Below, piece by piece: positions 2,688 through 38,195 of a DNA stretch of 64,000 nucleotides; position 1 is the first letter of the stretch; each line of letters starts with the position of its first letter. The DNA is taken from positions 1 through 64,000 of the forward strand of contig NZ_JADEWY010000013.1 in the NCBI RefSeq assembly GCF_015207375.1, written 5' to 3'. This DNA is from Coleofasciculus sp. LEGE 07092 (GTDB lineage Bacteria; Cyanobacteriota; Cyanobacteriia; Cyanobacteriales; Coleofasciculaceae). A model generated the notes under the pieces. It did not search any database and had not been told where the DNA came from. It worked only from the letters and a program-made list of their open reading frames with translations. The position numbers and the translations under genes were made by a program.

Positions 2688-5600
2688 ATGTCCAAATCAA
2701 CGCTTAAAAAACCAGAATTTCGCCATGAACACCGCTTAGGACTGGTGGTATATGGGGGTATCTCCCTCGCTATTTACATGAACGGCATTTGCCGTGAGTT
2801 CTATAATGCTGTACGCGGTCGGGGTATTTATAAACTTATTAAAGCACTTACCGATTCTGATATTGTTGTTGATATTGTATCAGGAACCTCTGCTGGGGGG
2901 ATTAATGGAGTCCTCTTAAGCTATGCTCTAGCTAACAGTACGGACAAGGACGTTGTTGATTTTAAAGAATTTGGTCAGATTTGGCGAGAAAGCGGCAGCA
3001 TTCGCAATCTGATGCATCAGCCTCTAGCGCGAGAATCTAAAGTTGAGTCTGTATTAGATGGGGCAGGATACTATCAATCTGAGCTAGCTACAGCGTTTCA
3101 AAAAGCTAGCAATAATAAAACCGATGCCCCAGCAGGAGAGTGGTTGTCGCCATTTAATGAGTTAGATTTATTTGTCACGGGGACGGATACAATCGGGCGA
3201 ATTTATCGGGCATTTGACGATACCGGAAGCGTGATAGAAGTTAAAGATCATCGTAGCATTTTCAGCCTCAAACACCGTCAAGGTCGCAAAGAACCTTTCA
3301 ATCCCAGCGGCGATCCCGCTGATCCCAATCGCACACCCAAACAAACCTATCAATCTCTGGCAAAACTTTGCCGGATTACCTCATGCTTTCCCGTTGCTTT
3401 TCCGGTGGTTAGCATCGGATTGAAAGAGGATGCCAATGAGTTAGATCGCAGGTTGGTTGAATGGGGACGGCTAGAAACTCGTGAGTTACCTGAAAAGCGA
3501 CCGAGAGAAGGTTATCAATTACATTTTGTCGATGGTGGAGTGTTGGACAATCGACCCTTCAGTTATACCATTCGAGATATTTATTACCGTACTGCCAATC
3601 GTCCAGTTAATCGCCAGCTTTTCTACATCGATCCAAGTCCTGATCGCTTTTCTGGCAGTCCTAAGTTTATCACGATGCCCAAACCCAATGCCTTGGAAGT
3701 GATTCAAGATTCATTAATCGGTTTGCCGATGTATGAAAGTATCAGTAACGATTTAGAGGCAATCAAAGAACATAACGAAAAAATTCGCCGCTACAATGAG
3801 ATTTTAGCGGCTGTTGAAGCTCCAGATTACTCTCTAGCCGAAGTTTCCGGTGAGATTGATGTTAATGAAGGCATTTATCTGCGGAGTCGTCTGATTGGAT
3901 TGCGCGATCGCATCCTGCCGCTAATTTTAAGGATGGATCGAGATGGCAGCAATAACTCCGACAAAGGCAACCAAACCATCTTAGAGAAAACAGCACAATT
4001 ACTAGTCGAAGGCATCACGGGCGAGGGAGAGAGTAAACAACAAGAAGCAATTCTACAAAGAGCTGGAGAACAAATTCGCAATCTAGATGTAGACTATGCC
4101 ATAAGAAAGCATTTCTATATTACTGAAAAGCTTTTCCAATTGCTAGAGAAGGAATCGGGCGCATTAGAATACAAAAAAATCCGATTGTTAGTGAGCAGAC
4201 TTAACCGCCATATCAAGCTAGTAGAAGTTATCGGTACGGCGTTAAATATGTTCCTGAGTCACCCTCAAGTCAGCGAATCATTCTACCGTTTGCTAGAGCA
4301 TCAACCTCCCCGCACTAATCAGGAATTAACCAATCGCTTACGCACTCAAATCTACGATCGCCTCTTGCGACTGAATCGCTTTTTCCTTGATGCTGATGGG
4401 TTAGAAAAGTTTGTGCCTCCAGCTTTTAATCGAGAACGTTTTAAAGCTATTCCCGCTGACTTTTTTAAAAAATTACCCTCACGAGCTAATGACTTAGCCT
4501 TAGAGTTTGATCAACTGGATACTAAACCCGTTGATTGGTTGTCTCAAAAACAAATTTCTGGTATTCTTGAGCAATTCAAGCAAAAAATTAGCAACTTAGA
4601 AGACAATCCATCTTACCTAGAAACAATCTGGTCAGATGAACGCTACGGAGAACGAAGCCCAGACAACTGCGGCAACGAATTTTGCTCAGTTTTGTCTAAA
4701 GTGGAGCAAGCCTCAGATATCTTGATCCAGTCGAGTGGATTGAAAAAGCCAAAAGATATCTTCAATCGGTTTAAAAACTTTCGTCATTTGGATCGCGTAC
4801 TTTATCCCTTTGAATACTTAAGCTCTCTAAACGAAAAAGATATTATTAAAACCATTCGATTTAGTCCCGATGATGCACAAATGGGATTAGGAAAAGGGAA
4901 AACAATTGAGGATAAATTAGCTGGAGATACTTTAAATGCTTTTGGGGGATTTTTCAAGAAATCCTGGCGGTCAAATGATATGCTGTGGGGACGATTGGAC
5001 GGGCTTAACCGCATTTTTGAAGCCTTAGTCACCCGTGATTCTCTAAAATCGTTTCCTAGGTTTCTAGAACGACAATCTCAGGAGCAGAGATGTACGAAAG
5101 ACGAATACTTAGAATTGCTAGTTCACGAATGTTTCTCCAACGTCCAACCCAGCGATCGCCAAAAACTAAAATCCCATCTTAAGATATTATCCGAACCCAA
5201 TTCCCAAGCATCGGATGCAGTCTTGGACATCATTTTTAACGACTTGGTACTAGAGAGTCATCGCTCAATTTTATCAGCAGATATTCGGACTGTTATAGAA
5301 GATGAGATTGCCGAACAAATCTCCTGGAACCGACAGCGAATTCAACCGAATGAACCCGATAATGTTGAAAAACTACTGGTTAAACTAGGAGATGAACCAC
5401 CTAAATATCGACCTGTTCCCGGTTACTTTCAAAAAAGTGTTAGCCTCTTAGCGGCTGGAAAATTAGCGAAAGATGCTATTGATACGCTATCACCTCACGA
5501 AAAAGAAGAGTTTTTTCGTAATCAATACCGAGTCGGCAAAGAAACGGTGTTGAAAGATATTCCCAGTATTGTGCTGGCAAATTTAGCAACTCGATTTAGT

Positions 5601-32211: not shown

Positions 32212-33315
32212 ATGATAGGGCGATCACTTCAGGCATCGAAACAAGGTATTCAGTTAGCCAAGCAAGCTTTAATCAGCAAAAGGTTAAAGCAGAAGGATTT
32301 AATCGGTTTTGTGTGTCAGAGTCGCCAGCCGATTTCTAAGTTCTTTACAGGTAAACCCGTTGATCGAGAAATCTTTGTGGGGATTTGCGAAAGGTTGGGG
32401 TTGAAGTGGGAGGAAATTGCTGAGGAGGGATTGAGCTCTCCCCCAACCTGTCTCCTGCAAGGAGAAGGGCGTAATTCTCCCCCCTTCCTTGATGAAAAGG
32501 CTTCGTTTTTTGCCATCCCTCCTCGTAGAGGAGACAGAGGGGAGTCAGGTTTGGATATCGATACTTTGGTGCAACAGGTACGCCAGCAGCGCCACGACAA
32601 AATTCAATATCAGTGTGGCACCATGCGGATGCTGGATATTTCTCAGCCTATTGCAATTTCAGATATCTACACCGATGTCAATATATTAGAGGAGATACCC
32701 AGTCAGCAATGGCGAGAGATTTCTGATCTAGTGCGAGATTTTAATCTAGAATCCGATAACTTTGACCGACTGGGACTTGGCAAGCGTCAGCAACGAGTAC
32801 CTGGGTTAGAGGCTGTGTCTCGGTACTCTAAACTAATGGTACTCGGTAAACCGGGGTCGGGTAAAAGCACATTTTTGCAGTGGGTAGCAATTAAGTGCGA
32901 TTTAGGCGAGTTTCAACCGAACCTAGTCCCGATATTTATCCGACTGAAAAACTTTGCTGATGATACCAGAAAAGACGACAGCAAATTCAGGTTATTGAAC
33001 TACATCAGTGAAGAGTTTTTTAGTTGTGGGATTGCAGAAAAATCGATAGTTGAAATAGTACTTAATCAAGGGAAAGCCTTAATTTTGTTAGATGGATTAG
33101 ATGAAGTGCGAGGTGATGATGGAGATAATATTTTAAAGCAAATACGAAGATTTCCCGAAACGTATTTCAAAAATAAATTAATTATAACTTGTAGAATTGC
33201 CGCCCTTAAATATTATTTTCATGGATTTACTAATATTGAAATTGAAGACACCTTATTATTACCCATTGCCGAAATTGAGAAGCGGAGGAATAAAAGCGCA
33301 TGGAAGAACTCATAA
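32212..33315 (+). CDS. HTH-NACHT NTPase, C-terminally truncated
   Basis: A 367-residue remnant of a larger cyanobacterial NLR-like protein. Residues about 8-70 are a helix-turn-helix-like domain (LKQKDLIGFVCQSRQPISKF, then ICERLGLKWEEIAEE). Residues about 75-113 come from an in-frame repeat insertion. Residues about 130-350 are most of a NACHT NTPase: Walker A GKPGSGKST, Walker B ALILLDGLDEV and sensor IITCRIAA. The usual continuation after the GFT..EI segment, plus winged-helix and C-terminal sensor repeats, is lost; the frame ends in an unrelated tail overlapping the start of the DUF29 gene by 16 bp. Intact relatives are regulators or anti-phage NLRs. This copy is probably non-functional, though ATP binding could remain. 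Confidence 0.8.
   Translation: MIGRSLQASKQGIQLAKQALISKRLKQKDLIGFVCQSRQPISKFFTGKPVDREIFVGICERLGLKWEEIAEEGLSSPPTCLLQGEGRNSPPFLDEKASFFAIPPRRGDRGESGLDIDTLVQQVRQQRHDKIQYQCGTMRMLDISQPIAISDIYTDVNILEEIPSQQWREISDLVRDFNLESDNFDRLGLGKRQQRVPGLEAVSRYSKLMVLGKPGSGKSTFLQWVAIKCDLGEFQPNLVPIFIRLKNFADDTRKDDSKFRLLNYISEEFFSCGIAEKSIVEIVLNQGKALILLDGLDEVRGDDGDNILKQIRRFPETYFKNKLIITCRIAALKYYFHGFTNIEIEDTLLLPIAEIEKRRNKSAWKNS
32435..32548 (+). repeat. REP-type palindrome inserted in-frame in the NACHT gene
   Basis: Contains CTCTCCCCCAACCTGTCTCC, GGAGAAGGG, and, about 80 bp on, CCCTCCTCGTAGAGGAGACAG followed by AGGGGAG. It is the same class as the intergenic hairpins at 27801 and 33831, but here read through in frame as a roughly 39-residue Pro/Gly/Arg-rich linker between HTH and NACHT. 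Confidence 0.6.
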
Positions 33316-34807: not shown

Positions 34808-35770
34808 TTAACGGCTACCTACCTGCACCAATTCCTCGGCACGCCGTCGCGGTATCTCGTAGGTGAAAAAATCATACGCCAGGACTGTATTGGGAAAAAT
34901 AGCCCGTGCTTCCTGGAGCAAATCGTTTAATTGAATATCATTTCCGGGTGCATAGCGAGGGCTGAAATGGGTCAAAATGAGCTGTTTCGCGCCAGCACCC
35001 AACGCGACTTGGGCTGCCATGGTTGACGTTGAGTGTAAGCGGTCAAATGCTAACTGAGCATCTTGGTGAGAAAAGGTCGCTTCATGAATCACCACGTCAG
35101 CATCTTGTGCCAGTGCTACAGCTCCTTCACAGTAAACCGTATCCGTGCAGTATGCGAATTTACGCCCTATTTCGGGTTCGCCACACAACTCACTTCCCCG
35201 AATCTGACGCCCATCAGTTAGCGTTACGGTTTCCCCACGCTTGAGCCTACCGTAGACGGGACCAGAGGGAATACCCATTGCTTTTGCCTTTTCCACATCA
35301 AAGCGCCCCGGACGGTCTTTTTCTACCACTCGGTAGCCAAAAGACTGCACCCGATGCTTGAGGTTTTCGCAGCTAACGATAAATTCCTCATCTTCATAGA
35401 TAATGCCAGGGGTGACAGTATGAACCTGAACCGGGAAGGAAAAGTGGGTGTGAGAGTATTTTCCACAAGCTTTCAGGTACTCATGAAGACCGGTAGGACC
35501 ATAAATATCGACTCGCTCGACATTACCCGCCAAACCACAACTAGCCAGTAACCCCATCAAACCAAAGATATGATCGCCGTGCAGGTGGGTGATAAAAATG
35601 CGGCGTAGCTGGCTGCTTTTTAGTTCACTACGCAGTAGCTGATGCTGAGTGCCTTCACCACAGTCAAACAGCCAAAATTCTGCCCGTTGGGGCAACCGCA
35701 GCGCTACACTCGACACATTGCGCGATCGCGTCGGTACTCCTGAGCTAGTTCCTAAAAATGTAATCTGCAC
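34808..35770 (-). CDS. rnz: ribonuclease Z (tRNA 3'-processing endonuclease)
   Basis: A 320-residue short-form RNase Z (tRNase ZS), a metallo-beta-lactamase-fold enzyme that cuts tRNA precursors 3' of the discriminator base. The N-terminus [19 protein letters not shown] and the zinc motif [11 protein letters not shown] are diagnostic. Further ligands are visible in [11 protein letters not shown] and [10 protein letters not shown]. The length is normal. It is transcribed towards larE. The last gene before the restriction-modification remnant starts 135 bp away on the other strand. Confidence 0.96.
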
Positions 35771-35905
35771 CGGCTTTGCCCTTCAACTTCCCTCCTTCCC
35801 TATGGTACACAGCAACGGAGATCGAGGGTGTCCGTATCTCCGTCATTGCTTGACTTCTGTGCATTCTTGACTAATACTATAGTCTTCAATGTACTCGAAT
35901 AGCGA

Positions 35906-36334
35906 ATGTTCTACTACTACGGCAGAAAGAAACAAATAGCAAAATATTACCCCTCTCCTAACTTTGATACCCTCATAGAACCGTTTGCAGGTTCAGCCGC
36001 TTATTCACTATACGGGGAGAATTGGAAAAAGGAAGTTATTCTCATTGAGAGAGATGAGCGAGTTTCTGAGATTTGGCAGTGGTTGATCGAGGAGGCAACG
36101 CCATCCAAAATCAGCAGCCTCCCTGATTTAGAGATTGGTGAAAAGAGTTCCGAATTCCTTCACATTATTCATGCTGCCACCAAAATGGCTTTTCACTACA
36201 AAACTATTAAAGTAACCCCTGTTTTAGCCAGAAATTGGGAGATCAGTAAACGATACATGGCACAAAATTTATTTAAGGTTAAGCATTGGAGAATTATTAA
36301 CGCGGATTACCTCCTAGCTCCTACAGTTGATTAA
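35906..36334 (+). pseudogene. D12-class adenine-N6 DNA methyltransferase, 3'-truncated
   Basis: 142 residues match the N-terminal half of Dam/D12-type methyltransferases: YYYGRKKQIAKYYPSPNFD, then the SAM-binding motif LIEPFAGSAAYSLY and the acidic strand VILIERDE. The family continues to the catalytic DPPY motif soon after the NADYLLAP segment, but here a TAA follows directly, so DPPY and the target-recognition region are missing. It must be inactive. It ends tail-to-tail with the remnant on the opposite strand at 36331, and next to a C-protein-like regulator, which together outline a decayed type II restriction-modification locus. Confidence 0.8.
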
Positions 36335-36441
36335 ATAACTTCTAAAAAGCTATTGGCTTGCTCTAGTGCAGATTTAATATGCTGGATATTCACTTCAAAT
36401 CCACAATAAATATTGAATTCAGGGTTGATGATATAAATCAT
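36331..36441 (-). pseudogene. 36-residue frame overlapping the regulator gene; possible endonuclease relic
   Basis: The ATG at 36441 lies within the last codons of the upstream HTH gene (23-bp overlap) and the frame reads MIYIINPEFNIYCGFEV..., ending with TAA at 36331. A C gene overlapping the start of the restriction endonuclease gene is the classical arrangement of type II systems with controller proteins. This short frame may be the 5' end plus 3' scar of the nuclease gene. No nuclease motif remains, so identity rests on position only. Confidence 0.4.
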
Positions 36442-36664
36442 CTAGGGTTTGTTCTACTTCGGCAATCAAGCTACTGGCTGTGGTATTTAAAGATTTTGAT
36501 ATCTCAAACAAAACGGACAAGGTAGGAGACTTCAAACCCCGCTCAATTTGGCTAACGTAAGTGCGGTGAATTCCGGCTCTGTCAGCCAGTTCTTCTTGAG
36601 AAATCTTTGCTCTTGTTCTGTATTTAGCTACAACTCTACCTAAAGCCTTATTAATGTCTGTCAT
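36419..36664 (-). CDS. XRE-family regulator resembling restriction-modification C proteins
   Basis: An 81-residue single-domain HTH protein. The helix-turn-helix is KISQEELADRAGIHRTYVSQ, followed by IERGLKSPTLSVLFEISKSL, which is the consensus of controller (C) proteins of type II restriction-modification systems. ATG 36664 is used; an upstream TTG would add 18 unlikely residues covering the operator. Directly upstream is a palindrome matching the C-box pattern GACTNNNAGTC (36689-36699), consistent with autoregulation. Its partners, a methyltransferase and a putative endonuclease frame, are both broken. The regulator itself looks intact and may still bind DNA. Confidence 0.82.
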   Translation of the reverse strand: MTDINKALGRVVAKYRTRAKISQEELADRAGIHRTYVSQIERGLKSPTLSVLFEISKSLNTTASSLIAEVEQTLDDLYHQP

Positions 36665-36687
36665 GCCGAAAAATATCTCAGAAAGAG

Positions 36688-36706
36688 AGACTACCAGTCT
36701 ACAGAC
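36688..36706 (-). promoter_or_regulatory. C-box-like operator upstream of the C-protein gene
   Basis: Two overlapping perfect palindromes on the plus strand: AGACT-ACC-AGTCT (36688-36700) and GTCT-AC-AGAC (36697-36706), 24-42 bases upstream of the regulator ATG. The first contains GACTNNNAGTC, the pattern reported for C-protein operators. Confidence 0.65.
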
Positions 36707-37040
36707 AATAGTATTCAAGCTATTCGTCTAGCGGCTACGGGTTGACTCCCCCAAAGTTCAAGGGGGTGTAGAGAACCGACATTGGGGATTGCACCCCACA
36801 CCCTGGACGCGACACGATGAGTCATCATTCAACCCCTCTAGCCGATTGACACAAAATGTGCTAGAAGTAAGCGAATCAATCGTGCTTCCAAAAGTAAAAC
36901 GTTTGAAAAAGAATAATCAATCCGTGCGGATTTGGTGTTAAGAGTCTTGAACGAAGTAATTTAGCGCTTGCCTTTAGTTACAATTCAATGGCTGCAATTC
37001 CGAAAACGAAACCTATAGTCGTGTGAGGAAATAATCAAAG
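36707..37040. other. intergenic region with hairpin
   Basis: About 330 bp between divergent genes. CCCCC (36748-36752) and GGGGG (36762-36766) form a short stem in a segment (CTAGCGGCTACGGGTTGACT) that superficially recalls a tRNA 5' half but has no T-arm. The last 100 bp should contain the promoter of the SpoIID-like gene; GAGGAAA precedes its start. Confidence 0.4.
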
Positions 37041-38195
37041 ATGGCATCTAGACGTGTCCCTGTCTCACTGGTATCTCTACTCAAGCAGATGATGTTGTTT
37101 GGAGGGCGGCATTGGTTGCTCTCCTTTTTAGTGTGGATCGTTTTAGTCGGTCCAGCTCAAGCCGCGATGGAACTGCGGGTGGCAATTCAAGAGGGTGTCA
37201 GTCGAGTGAAAGTGGGGAGTTCCACCAAAGCGATTGTCCGTGATAGTGCGGGGCAGGCGGTGGGAGAATTGAAGGCGATGAATGGCTTTAATGCCCAATC
37301 TAGAAGTGGTAGCGTCACCCTGGGAAGTTTGCGTTCGGGTGCATTGTCGATTGAACCGACTGATAATGGTTTTGTCTGGATTGGCGATCGCTGGTATCGG
37401 GGACGTACTCGACTCGTGGCGACTGGCGGCGGTTTGATTGCCGTTAACCAGGTTGATTTAGATCAGTACCTCTACAGCGTGATCGGCTCGGAAATGAGTT
37501 CCAGTTGGCCCCTAGAAGCTTTGAAAGCTCAAGCAGTTGCTGCCCGTACCTATGCGCTTAACCAACGGGCTAAGTCAGGAAATGGCATCTACGATGTCGG
37601 TGACACGACAAAATGGCAAGTTTACAAAGGACTGGAAGCAGAAGCGACAAGCACTCAGCAAGCTGTAAATGACACCTCAGGTCAGATCATGACCTATAGT
37701 GGTGAGCCGATTCTGGCAGTCTTCCACTCATCCTCTGGAGGACATACAGAAAATGTGGAAGATGTATGGAGTCAACCTCTACCTTACCTACGGGGTGTTC
37801 CCGATTACGATATAGGTGCGCCCGTCTATCAGTGGATGCAATCCTTTTCTAGTGGAGAACTTAGCCGTAGAATTGGTGGTGTTGGTACAGTAACGTCGAT
37901 GACGCCAGAAAGTACGACTCCGAACGGACGCATTGCCACGATGCGGGTGCAAGGTACTGGTGGCAGCAAGCGCGTTAAAGGGAATGACCTCCGCAGCGCA
38001 CTCGGTCTAAAAAGTACCTTATTCACCGTCTCTAAAACAGGTGGTAGCTTCCAAATCAATGGTCGGGGTTACGGTCATGGTTTGGGTTTGAGCCAGTGGG
38101 GAGCCCATAATTTAGCGGCTCAAGGTACGAACTACCAACAGATTTTGGGTCACTACTACCAACAAGCGACTCTCTCCCAGATGCAGTCTCGCTAA
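37041..38195 (+). CDS. SpoIID/LytB-domain exported protein
   Basis: A 384-residue protein with an N-terminal signal peptide or anchor (HWLLSFLVWIVLVGPAQAA). Residues about 40-130 are a beta-rich N-terminal region. Residues about 130-375 form the SpoIID domain: DLDQYLYSVIGSEMSSSWP, LKAQAVAARTYALNQ, FHSSSGGHTENVEDVW, and the C-terminal GRGYGHGLGLSQWGAHNLA. SpoIID of Bacillus is a lytic transglycosylase acting on peptidoglycan, and LytB-type homologues enhance amidases. In non-sporulating cyanobacteria a role in cell-wall remodelling is inferred. The Glu in GSEMSS corresponds to the catalytic region. Monocistronic, followed by a strong hairpin. Confidence 0.93.
   Translation: MASRRVPVSLVSLLKQMMLFGGRHWLLSFLVWIVLVGPAQAAMELRVAIQEGVSRVKVGSSTKAIVRDSAGQAVGELKAMNGFNAQSRSGSVTLGSLRSGALSIEPTDNGFVWIGDRWYRGRTRLVATGGGLIAVNQVDLDQYLYSVIGSEMSSSWPLEALKAQAVAARTYALNQRAKSGNGIYDVGDTTKWQVYKGLEAEATSTQQAVNDTSGQIMTYSGEPILAVFHSSSGGHTENVEDVWSQPLPYLRGVPDYDIGAPVYQWMQSFSSGELSRRIGGVGTVTSMTPESTTPNGRIATMRVQGTGGSKRVKGNDLRSALGLKSTLFTVSKTGGSFQINGRGYGHGLGLSQWGAHNLAAQGTNYQQILGHYYQQATLSQMQSR

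Follow-up and report, generated by a model that had tools for sequence, protein, structure and literature searches.

What remains of a type II restriction-modification (R-M) system after both of its enzymes have been cut off, and how could the host survive such a loss? R-M systems often decay, as is to be expected. Loss of the methyltransferase (M) while the endonuclease (R) is live should kill the host. These questions are raised by a locus in 64,000 nucleotides of DNA from Coleofasciculus sp. LEGE 07092 (the window), which belongs to contig C213 of a 6.7-Mb draft assembly in 296 contigs. An earlier note, made from the letters of the window, had read the locus as a decayed type II R-M locus. 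This reading held, and intact loci with the same M, R and controller (C) genes in the predicted order exist. It is very probable that one deletion inactivated an M-R-C module between rnz and spoIID and left its control circuit as a recent remnant. This reading draws on the homology, the junction, the intact C frame and the conserved boxes. The locus is a further, well-resolved example of an already known kind of decay.

An acquired module between rnz and spoIID

The coordinates of the features are given in Table 1. Of the 21 relatives whose rnz is full-length, 10 have rnz next to spoIID without the R-M module; the gaps there measure ~240-670 bp and hold no match to M or C. In the remaining 11, the contig ended or spoIID was not inside the 1.5 kb fetched. 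Because the two flanking genes adjoin without it in relatives, the neighbourhood is old and the R-M locus is an acquired module. In G001, the rnz-spoIID site is empty (L100) and an intact system is found at another place in the genome. Because the search of relatives included no genome of the same genus, the deletion can be neither dated nor followed as a segregating variant.

Table 1. Positions of the R-M remnant, its control elements and its flanking genes in the window.
Feature	Position	Strand	Remark
rnz (tRNase Z), left flank	34808..35770	-	insertion-site marker
C-box-like palindrome, predicted M promoter	35872..35887	+	2 mismatches to GAATACTATAGTATTC
Truncated D12-type adenine methyltransferase (M) frame	35906..36334	+	142 aa
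Deletion junction	36322..36323	.	M codon 139 meets antisense R codon 40
Endonuclease (R) remnant, codons 1-40 of ~225	36323..36441	-	homology to intact R
Controller (C) protein gene, intact	36419..36664	-	81 codons, ATG 36662-36664
Two-box C operator GAATACTATTGTCTGTAGACTGGTAGTCTC upstream of C	36687..36716	-	conserved in relatives with the same C type
SpoIID-domain protein, right flank	37041..38195	+	insertion-site marker

Another truncated frame was observed in the same region. An NACHT NTPase frame (32212-33315) breaks off within the NACHT domain, covering positions 3-134 of 167 in the Pfam profile and 389-531 of 1027 in PADLOC PDC-S60, and is followed by a DUF29 frame at 33300. It may be another truncated defence gene, 2.6 kb away from the R-M remnant.

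The methyltransferase is truncated before its catalytic motif

The window M matches the PADLOC MTase_II model PDLC03340 over model positions 1-141 of 228 (E 1.6e-72), and its score against Pfam D12 is 18.7 bits, below the cut-off of 22. It is 87% identical over residues 1-142 to M of L042 (genome G033), where a complete and overlapping set is found (M of 232 aa on the plus strand, R of 225 aa and C of 79 aa on the minus strand). Homology runs to 36322 (codon 139) and is followed by three junction-derived residues and a stop. The window M therefore consists of codons 1-139 of a gene that has ~232 codons in intact relatives, and the break precedes DPPY. Consistently with the truncation ahead of DPPY described before, no full-length methyltransferase with a DPPY motif is present at the locus, and the catalytic motif is missing. 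The nearest M relatives from named genomes are cyanobacterial.

When the genome (G000) was searched with M and with R, no second M copy and no other R were found in the draft, R being present solely as the 41-residue remnant. Other D12 enzymes are encoded on C82, C15 and C257, and these genes are different from the window M.

The 36-residue frame is the start of an endonuclease gene

The open R frame on the minus strand (36331-36441) has 36 codons of ~225, and no full-length endonuclease is present at the locus. A short frame overlapping the end of the regulator gene had been reported, and this was confirmed: the R ATG (36439-36441) lies over the end of the C gene, whose stop is at 36419-36421. 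Across codons 1-40, the window R is 72.5% identical to L042 R. As judged from homology, the 36-residue frame is the start of a predicted 225-residue endonuclease of the PD-(D/E)XK type.

The intact R family was characterised through L042 R, which matched PADLOC REase_II PDLC03564 (E 2e-70) and had no match in Pfam or NCBIfam. PD...(D/E)xK is the catalytic motif of PD-(D/E)XK endonucleases, and P77-D78 and E100-x-K102 are invariant in the aligned R sequences (n=28). The best structural matches of the R model (pLDDT 90) are mostly restriction enzymes, such as NaeI (Z 8.5), NhoI (6.1) and EcoRV (5.9). Foldseek with the model gave a best E of 0.1 and nothing at E 0.001, and the structural matches of the predicted fold are middling. 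An R relative (hit H1; 58% identity over 98%) was also found on NC_017655.1, a 5.9-kb plasmid of E. coli, where the features beneath the match are labelled hypothetical protein and DNA cytosine methyltransferase. On this match, the R family is carried on small plasmids as well.

One deletion joined M to R, and R carries a separate nonsense codon

The mapping of the deletion against intact homologues, which the earlier note had proposed, was performed by codon alignments, with the coordinates derived by hand. Both breaks fall at 36322/36323. M ends with codon 139 (36320-36322), and R is retained from its first codon up to the second base of codon 40 (36323), with a junction microhomology of at most 1 base. 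Compared with L042, ~821 bp are missing (L042 1918-2738), which comprise 93 M codons with their stop, the overlap between M and R, and 185 codons of R. The deletion spared C, all the boxes and both promoter regions. The stop codons of M and R overlap in TTAA at 36331-36334, so the two frames indeed meet tail-to-tail there, as noticed before.

The proposal that one deletion took both 3' ends stood, with a correction. The single junction supports it; the R frame, however, ends at a nonsense codon of its own. R homology passes through this stop (codon 37, 36331-36333), and three further R codons are retained after it. Because the codon-37 stop is located inside retained R sequence, it is a separate lesion, and the position of the frame end is therefore not explained by the deletion alone.

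The nonsense codon also bears on whether the break is real. The genome is a draft assembly in 296 contigs, in which an assembly error at the junction is formally possible, and the true locus could then be intact. An artefact of assembly or sequencing is nevertheless highly unlikely, because the nonsense codon in the retained R lies outside the deletion as a second, independent lesion, and other genomes carry similarly broken loci.

Returning to the decay of an acquired module, the order of events can be proposed as follows. A C-controlled type II R-M module (M-> <-R <-C) would have been acquired between rnz and spoIID. A single illegitimate deletion of roughly 0.8 kb would then have brought the middle of M and the start of R together, tail-to-tail. 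Loss of M would have been survivable either because the deletion removed M and R together or because the nonsense codon had already inactivated R; the host would be safe in both orders, and the sequence does not settle between them. The locus presents a clean case of a decay route in which both enzymes are gone in one event, among the few safe ways of losing M.

The controller gene and its operator are retained

The description of a C-protein-like regulator was borne out by matches of the window C to HTH_3 (2.5e-16) and PADLOC Control_protein (3.5e-13), and by C.BclI (2b5a, E 3.1e-13) as its best solved-structure match. The window C is 82% identical to L042 C, and in both loci C overlaps the start of R (in the window, C ends at 36419 and the R ATG is at 36441). 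A further C-like regulator with 47% identity to the window C is found in the same genome (L114, G000:C63; coordinates 2693-2908 and 3511-4707), near a frame that by eye resembles a cytosine-5 methyltransferase.

A C-box palindrome upstream of the regulator had been pointed out earlier. The palindrome GACTNNNAGTC is present at 36689-36699, but it makes up one half of an operator with two boxes, the half closer to C, and the box at the M promoter had been missed. Together with the neighbouring box, the palindrome forms the 30-bp operator GAATACTATWGTCTGTAGACTNNNAGTCTC, and these paired boxes (36687-36716) are a predicted C binding site. GACTNNNAGTC by itself is weak evidence, near chance, as 2 sites in the window were found versus 0.54 expected and 11 of 100 shuffles reach 2. 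The full 30-bp operator has 1 site in the window and none in 100 shuffles at up to 3 mismatches; this test is post hoc, the pattern having been derived from homologues plus the window site, and it is the conservation that carries weight. Of the 41 M loci scanned, 14 have the 21-base operator core with up to 4 substitutions (L028, whose contig ends within C, could not be scanned at this place); all 14 have the same C type, and they span cyanobacteria to spirochaetes. When 388 genomes of the order were searched at up to 1 mismatch, the core was found in 11, with one site per genome, and the reversed-core control was found in 0. A perfect 5-bp inverted repeat, CCCCC-AAAGTTCAA-GGGGG, was also observed upstream of the C operator (36748-36766).

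The additional box is located upstream of M. With up to 3 mismatches allowed, GAATACTATAGTATTC was found in 15/18 loci with this C type, 1/9 loci without recognisable C and 0/17 loci with another C type, in a count that included the start codon, which two of the boxes overlap. The Fisher p of 0.0006 (against loci without recognisable C) is descriptive, because the motif was picked post hoc and the loci are related. When the 100 nt upstream of M in the window were shuffled 200 times by mononucleotides, none of the shuffles gave a box as good. Among loci with this C type, L009, L010 and G526 (L135) are without the box, and at L003, which is without C, it is still present at 3 mismatches. C would be expected to bind the predicted boxes, and an action of C on the M promoter as well, as known for C.Kpn2I, would fit the distribution of the M box. 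C proteins that repress M are known, for example in Kpn2I (PMC6237814). In PADLOC this R-M family appears only as generic type II, and the boxes outline a three-box control circuit for it.

The circuit that remains would comprise the intact C gene, the two-box operator with its promoter and the further box at the M promoter. Given the intact operator, C should still be made and is probably autoregulated, now without any enzyme to control. A C-activated leftward promoter could also read into rnz and thereby place tRNase Z under the control of C. The rnz start (35770) is on the same strand, ~650 bp from the C stop, and a crude consensus scan found no terminator-like site in 35700-37100 on either strand. 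However, the transcript would have to cover a long distance, antisense to the M remnant, and rnz adjoins spoIID without the element in 10 relatives, so that rnz does not need it. Such a capture of the regulator is very improbable.

The decayed locus, with a leftover circuit, most likely drifts as a recent remnant, presumably without a selected role. The dN/dS of C is 0.04-0.08 in the computable window pairs. For M it is 0.16 against L006, with 0.10 for the L006-L003 pair, and for R codons 1-40 it is 0.09-0.25 with the window and 0.06-0.25 among other pairs. No relaxed selection was measurable in M or C in these comparisons, in which most synonymous changes are saturated. At columns that are invariant across the 38 other M sequences compared, the M remnant differs once, and the argument for recency rests on such small-number or saturated rates.

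Intact relatives and other routes of decay

When L042 M, R and C were used in tblastn, all three were matched at the window. M relatives were found at 39 loci in genome_contigs; of the 56 other genomes that were searched as relatives, 5 gave a match, which was weak in G013. Because some loci are apparently the same record (for example L005/G001:C379, L004/G638:C4, L009/G591:C1, L011/G439:C248 and L012/G592:C11), these surveys do not count as independent. The convergent M-> <-R <-C set also occurs in other cyanobacteria and in bins of Acidobacteriota, Ignavibacteria, Beggiatoa, spirochaetes and others. In further genomes, a second arrangement is seen, C-R-M in one direction with a different C type.

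Homologues of the regulator away from R-M genes would have spoken against the earlier note, and in 10 of the 11 operator-bearing genomes, the window included, C lies next to R and M sequence. In the eleventh, C stands beside a 12-residue R remnant. C is complete in all 11 genomes. R is complete in 7 and broken in 4 (window, G022, G526 and G448); in three of these four, the window, G022 and G526, M is broken or missing as well.

The common route of decay is, as expected, the loss or damage of R with M kept. M is found without R and C matches at L003, L007, L008 and L034, and with an R remnant at L006 and L040, while R is cut or internally deleted beside an intact M at L027 and L131. Several other broken loci were observed. 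At L051/L118 (G022:C50), C with a perfect operator core is followed by two short R scraps and no M; this lone controller, in another family of the order, adjoins an HlyD-like gene (by eye). At L127 (G526:C1, a 6.4-Mb contig), R has a nonsense codon 73 and M a frameshift near its start, and C is intact; R is intact in G591, of the same genus as G526. At L002 (4600-4765), M breaks off at codon 218 and runs into an antisense C scrap (residues 55-70), with no R match there. At L035 (3026-3976), C and R form a single 317-residue frame, which resembles the natural C-R fusions described in PMC3850674. The L035 M has lost ~29 residues after codon 139, with the frame shifted, beside a complete R frame. 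This state would be lethal if real and if R is active, and it may be an assembly fault.

Could the leftover controller protect its host?

In the window, G022 and G526, both enzymes are broken and the C frame and operator are intact. This pattern would also be seen if C and its switches were kept by selection as an exclusion device against incoming related R-M systems. By analogy, the resident C would turn on the incoming R at once and restrain M through the M-promoter box, so that the recipient is killed or establishment is aborted. A mechanism of this kind, C incompatibility or apoptotic mutual exclusion, is described in section 16 of PMC3874152, which cites Nakayama and Kobayashi 1998: a resident C blocks an incoming R-M system of the same group by activating its R, which kills the cell. 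Systems with the same operator circulate in the order (11/388 genomes), and the dN/dS of C gives no sign of relaxed constraint.

However, this rate test cannot tell selection from recent decay, and chance survival of the short C gene is likely. About 7 lesions in ~1.37 kb of R plus M predict ~1.2 in C, where 0 were seen; this is a hand estimate, not significant, for loci that were chosen by their operator. Moreover, C was lost at several of the 41 M loci, which argues that it is not generally favoured. Retention of C and its switches by selection is improbable, and it is similarly doubtful that the leftover C is host immunity against its own kind of R-M, with the window, G022 and G526 as separate natural cases. 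If true, losing both enzymes but keeping the controller and its switches would convert a selfish R-M element into host immunity. A literature search for a lone C gene after loss of R and M found none, which is not a claim of absence from print. Natural C-only loci are well suited to asking whether a leftover controller guards the host from re-infection by the same element.

Comparison with known systems

The window locus resembles the C.BclI/C.AhdI/C.PvuII/C.Kpn2I class in having a small HTH controller gene that overlaps the R start and paired operator boxes upstream of C. It differs from this class in that both enzymes are cut off and in the convergent arrangement M-> <-R <-C; its operator core, ATACTATWGTCTGTAGACT, was compared within its own family only. 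The window M and the R of its relatives belong to the described families PADLOC MTase_II PDLC03340 and REase_II PDLC03564. Unlike the members of these families, the window retains only positions 1-141 of 228 of M, and its R is down to 40 codons. With the systems showing C incompatibility, the window shares a resident C, which could switch on R when a system with the same operator enters the cell, whereas its resident is without a working M or R.
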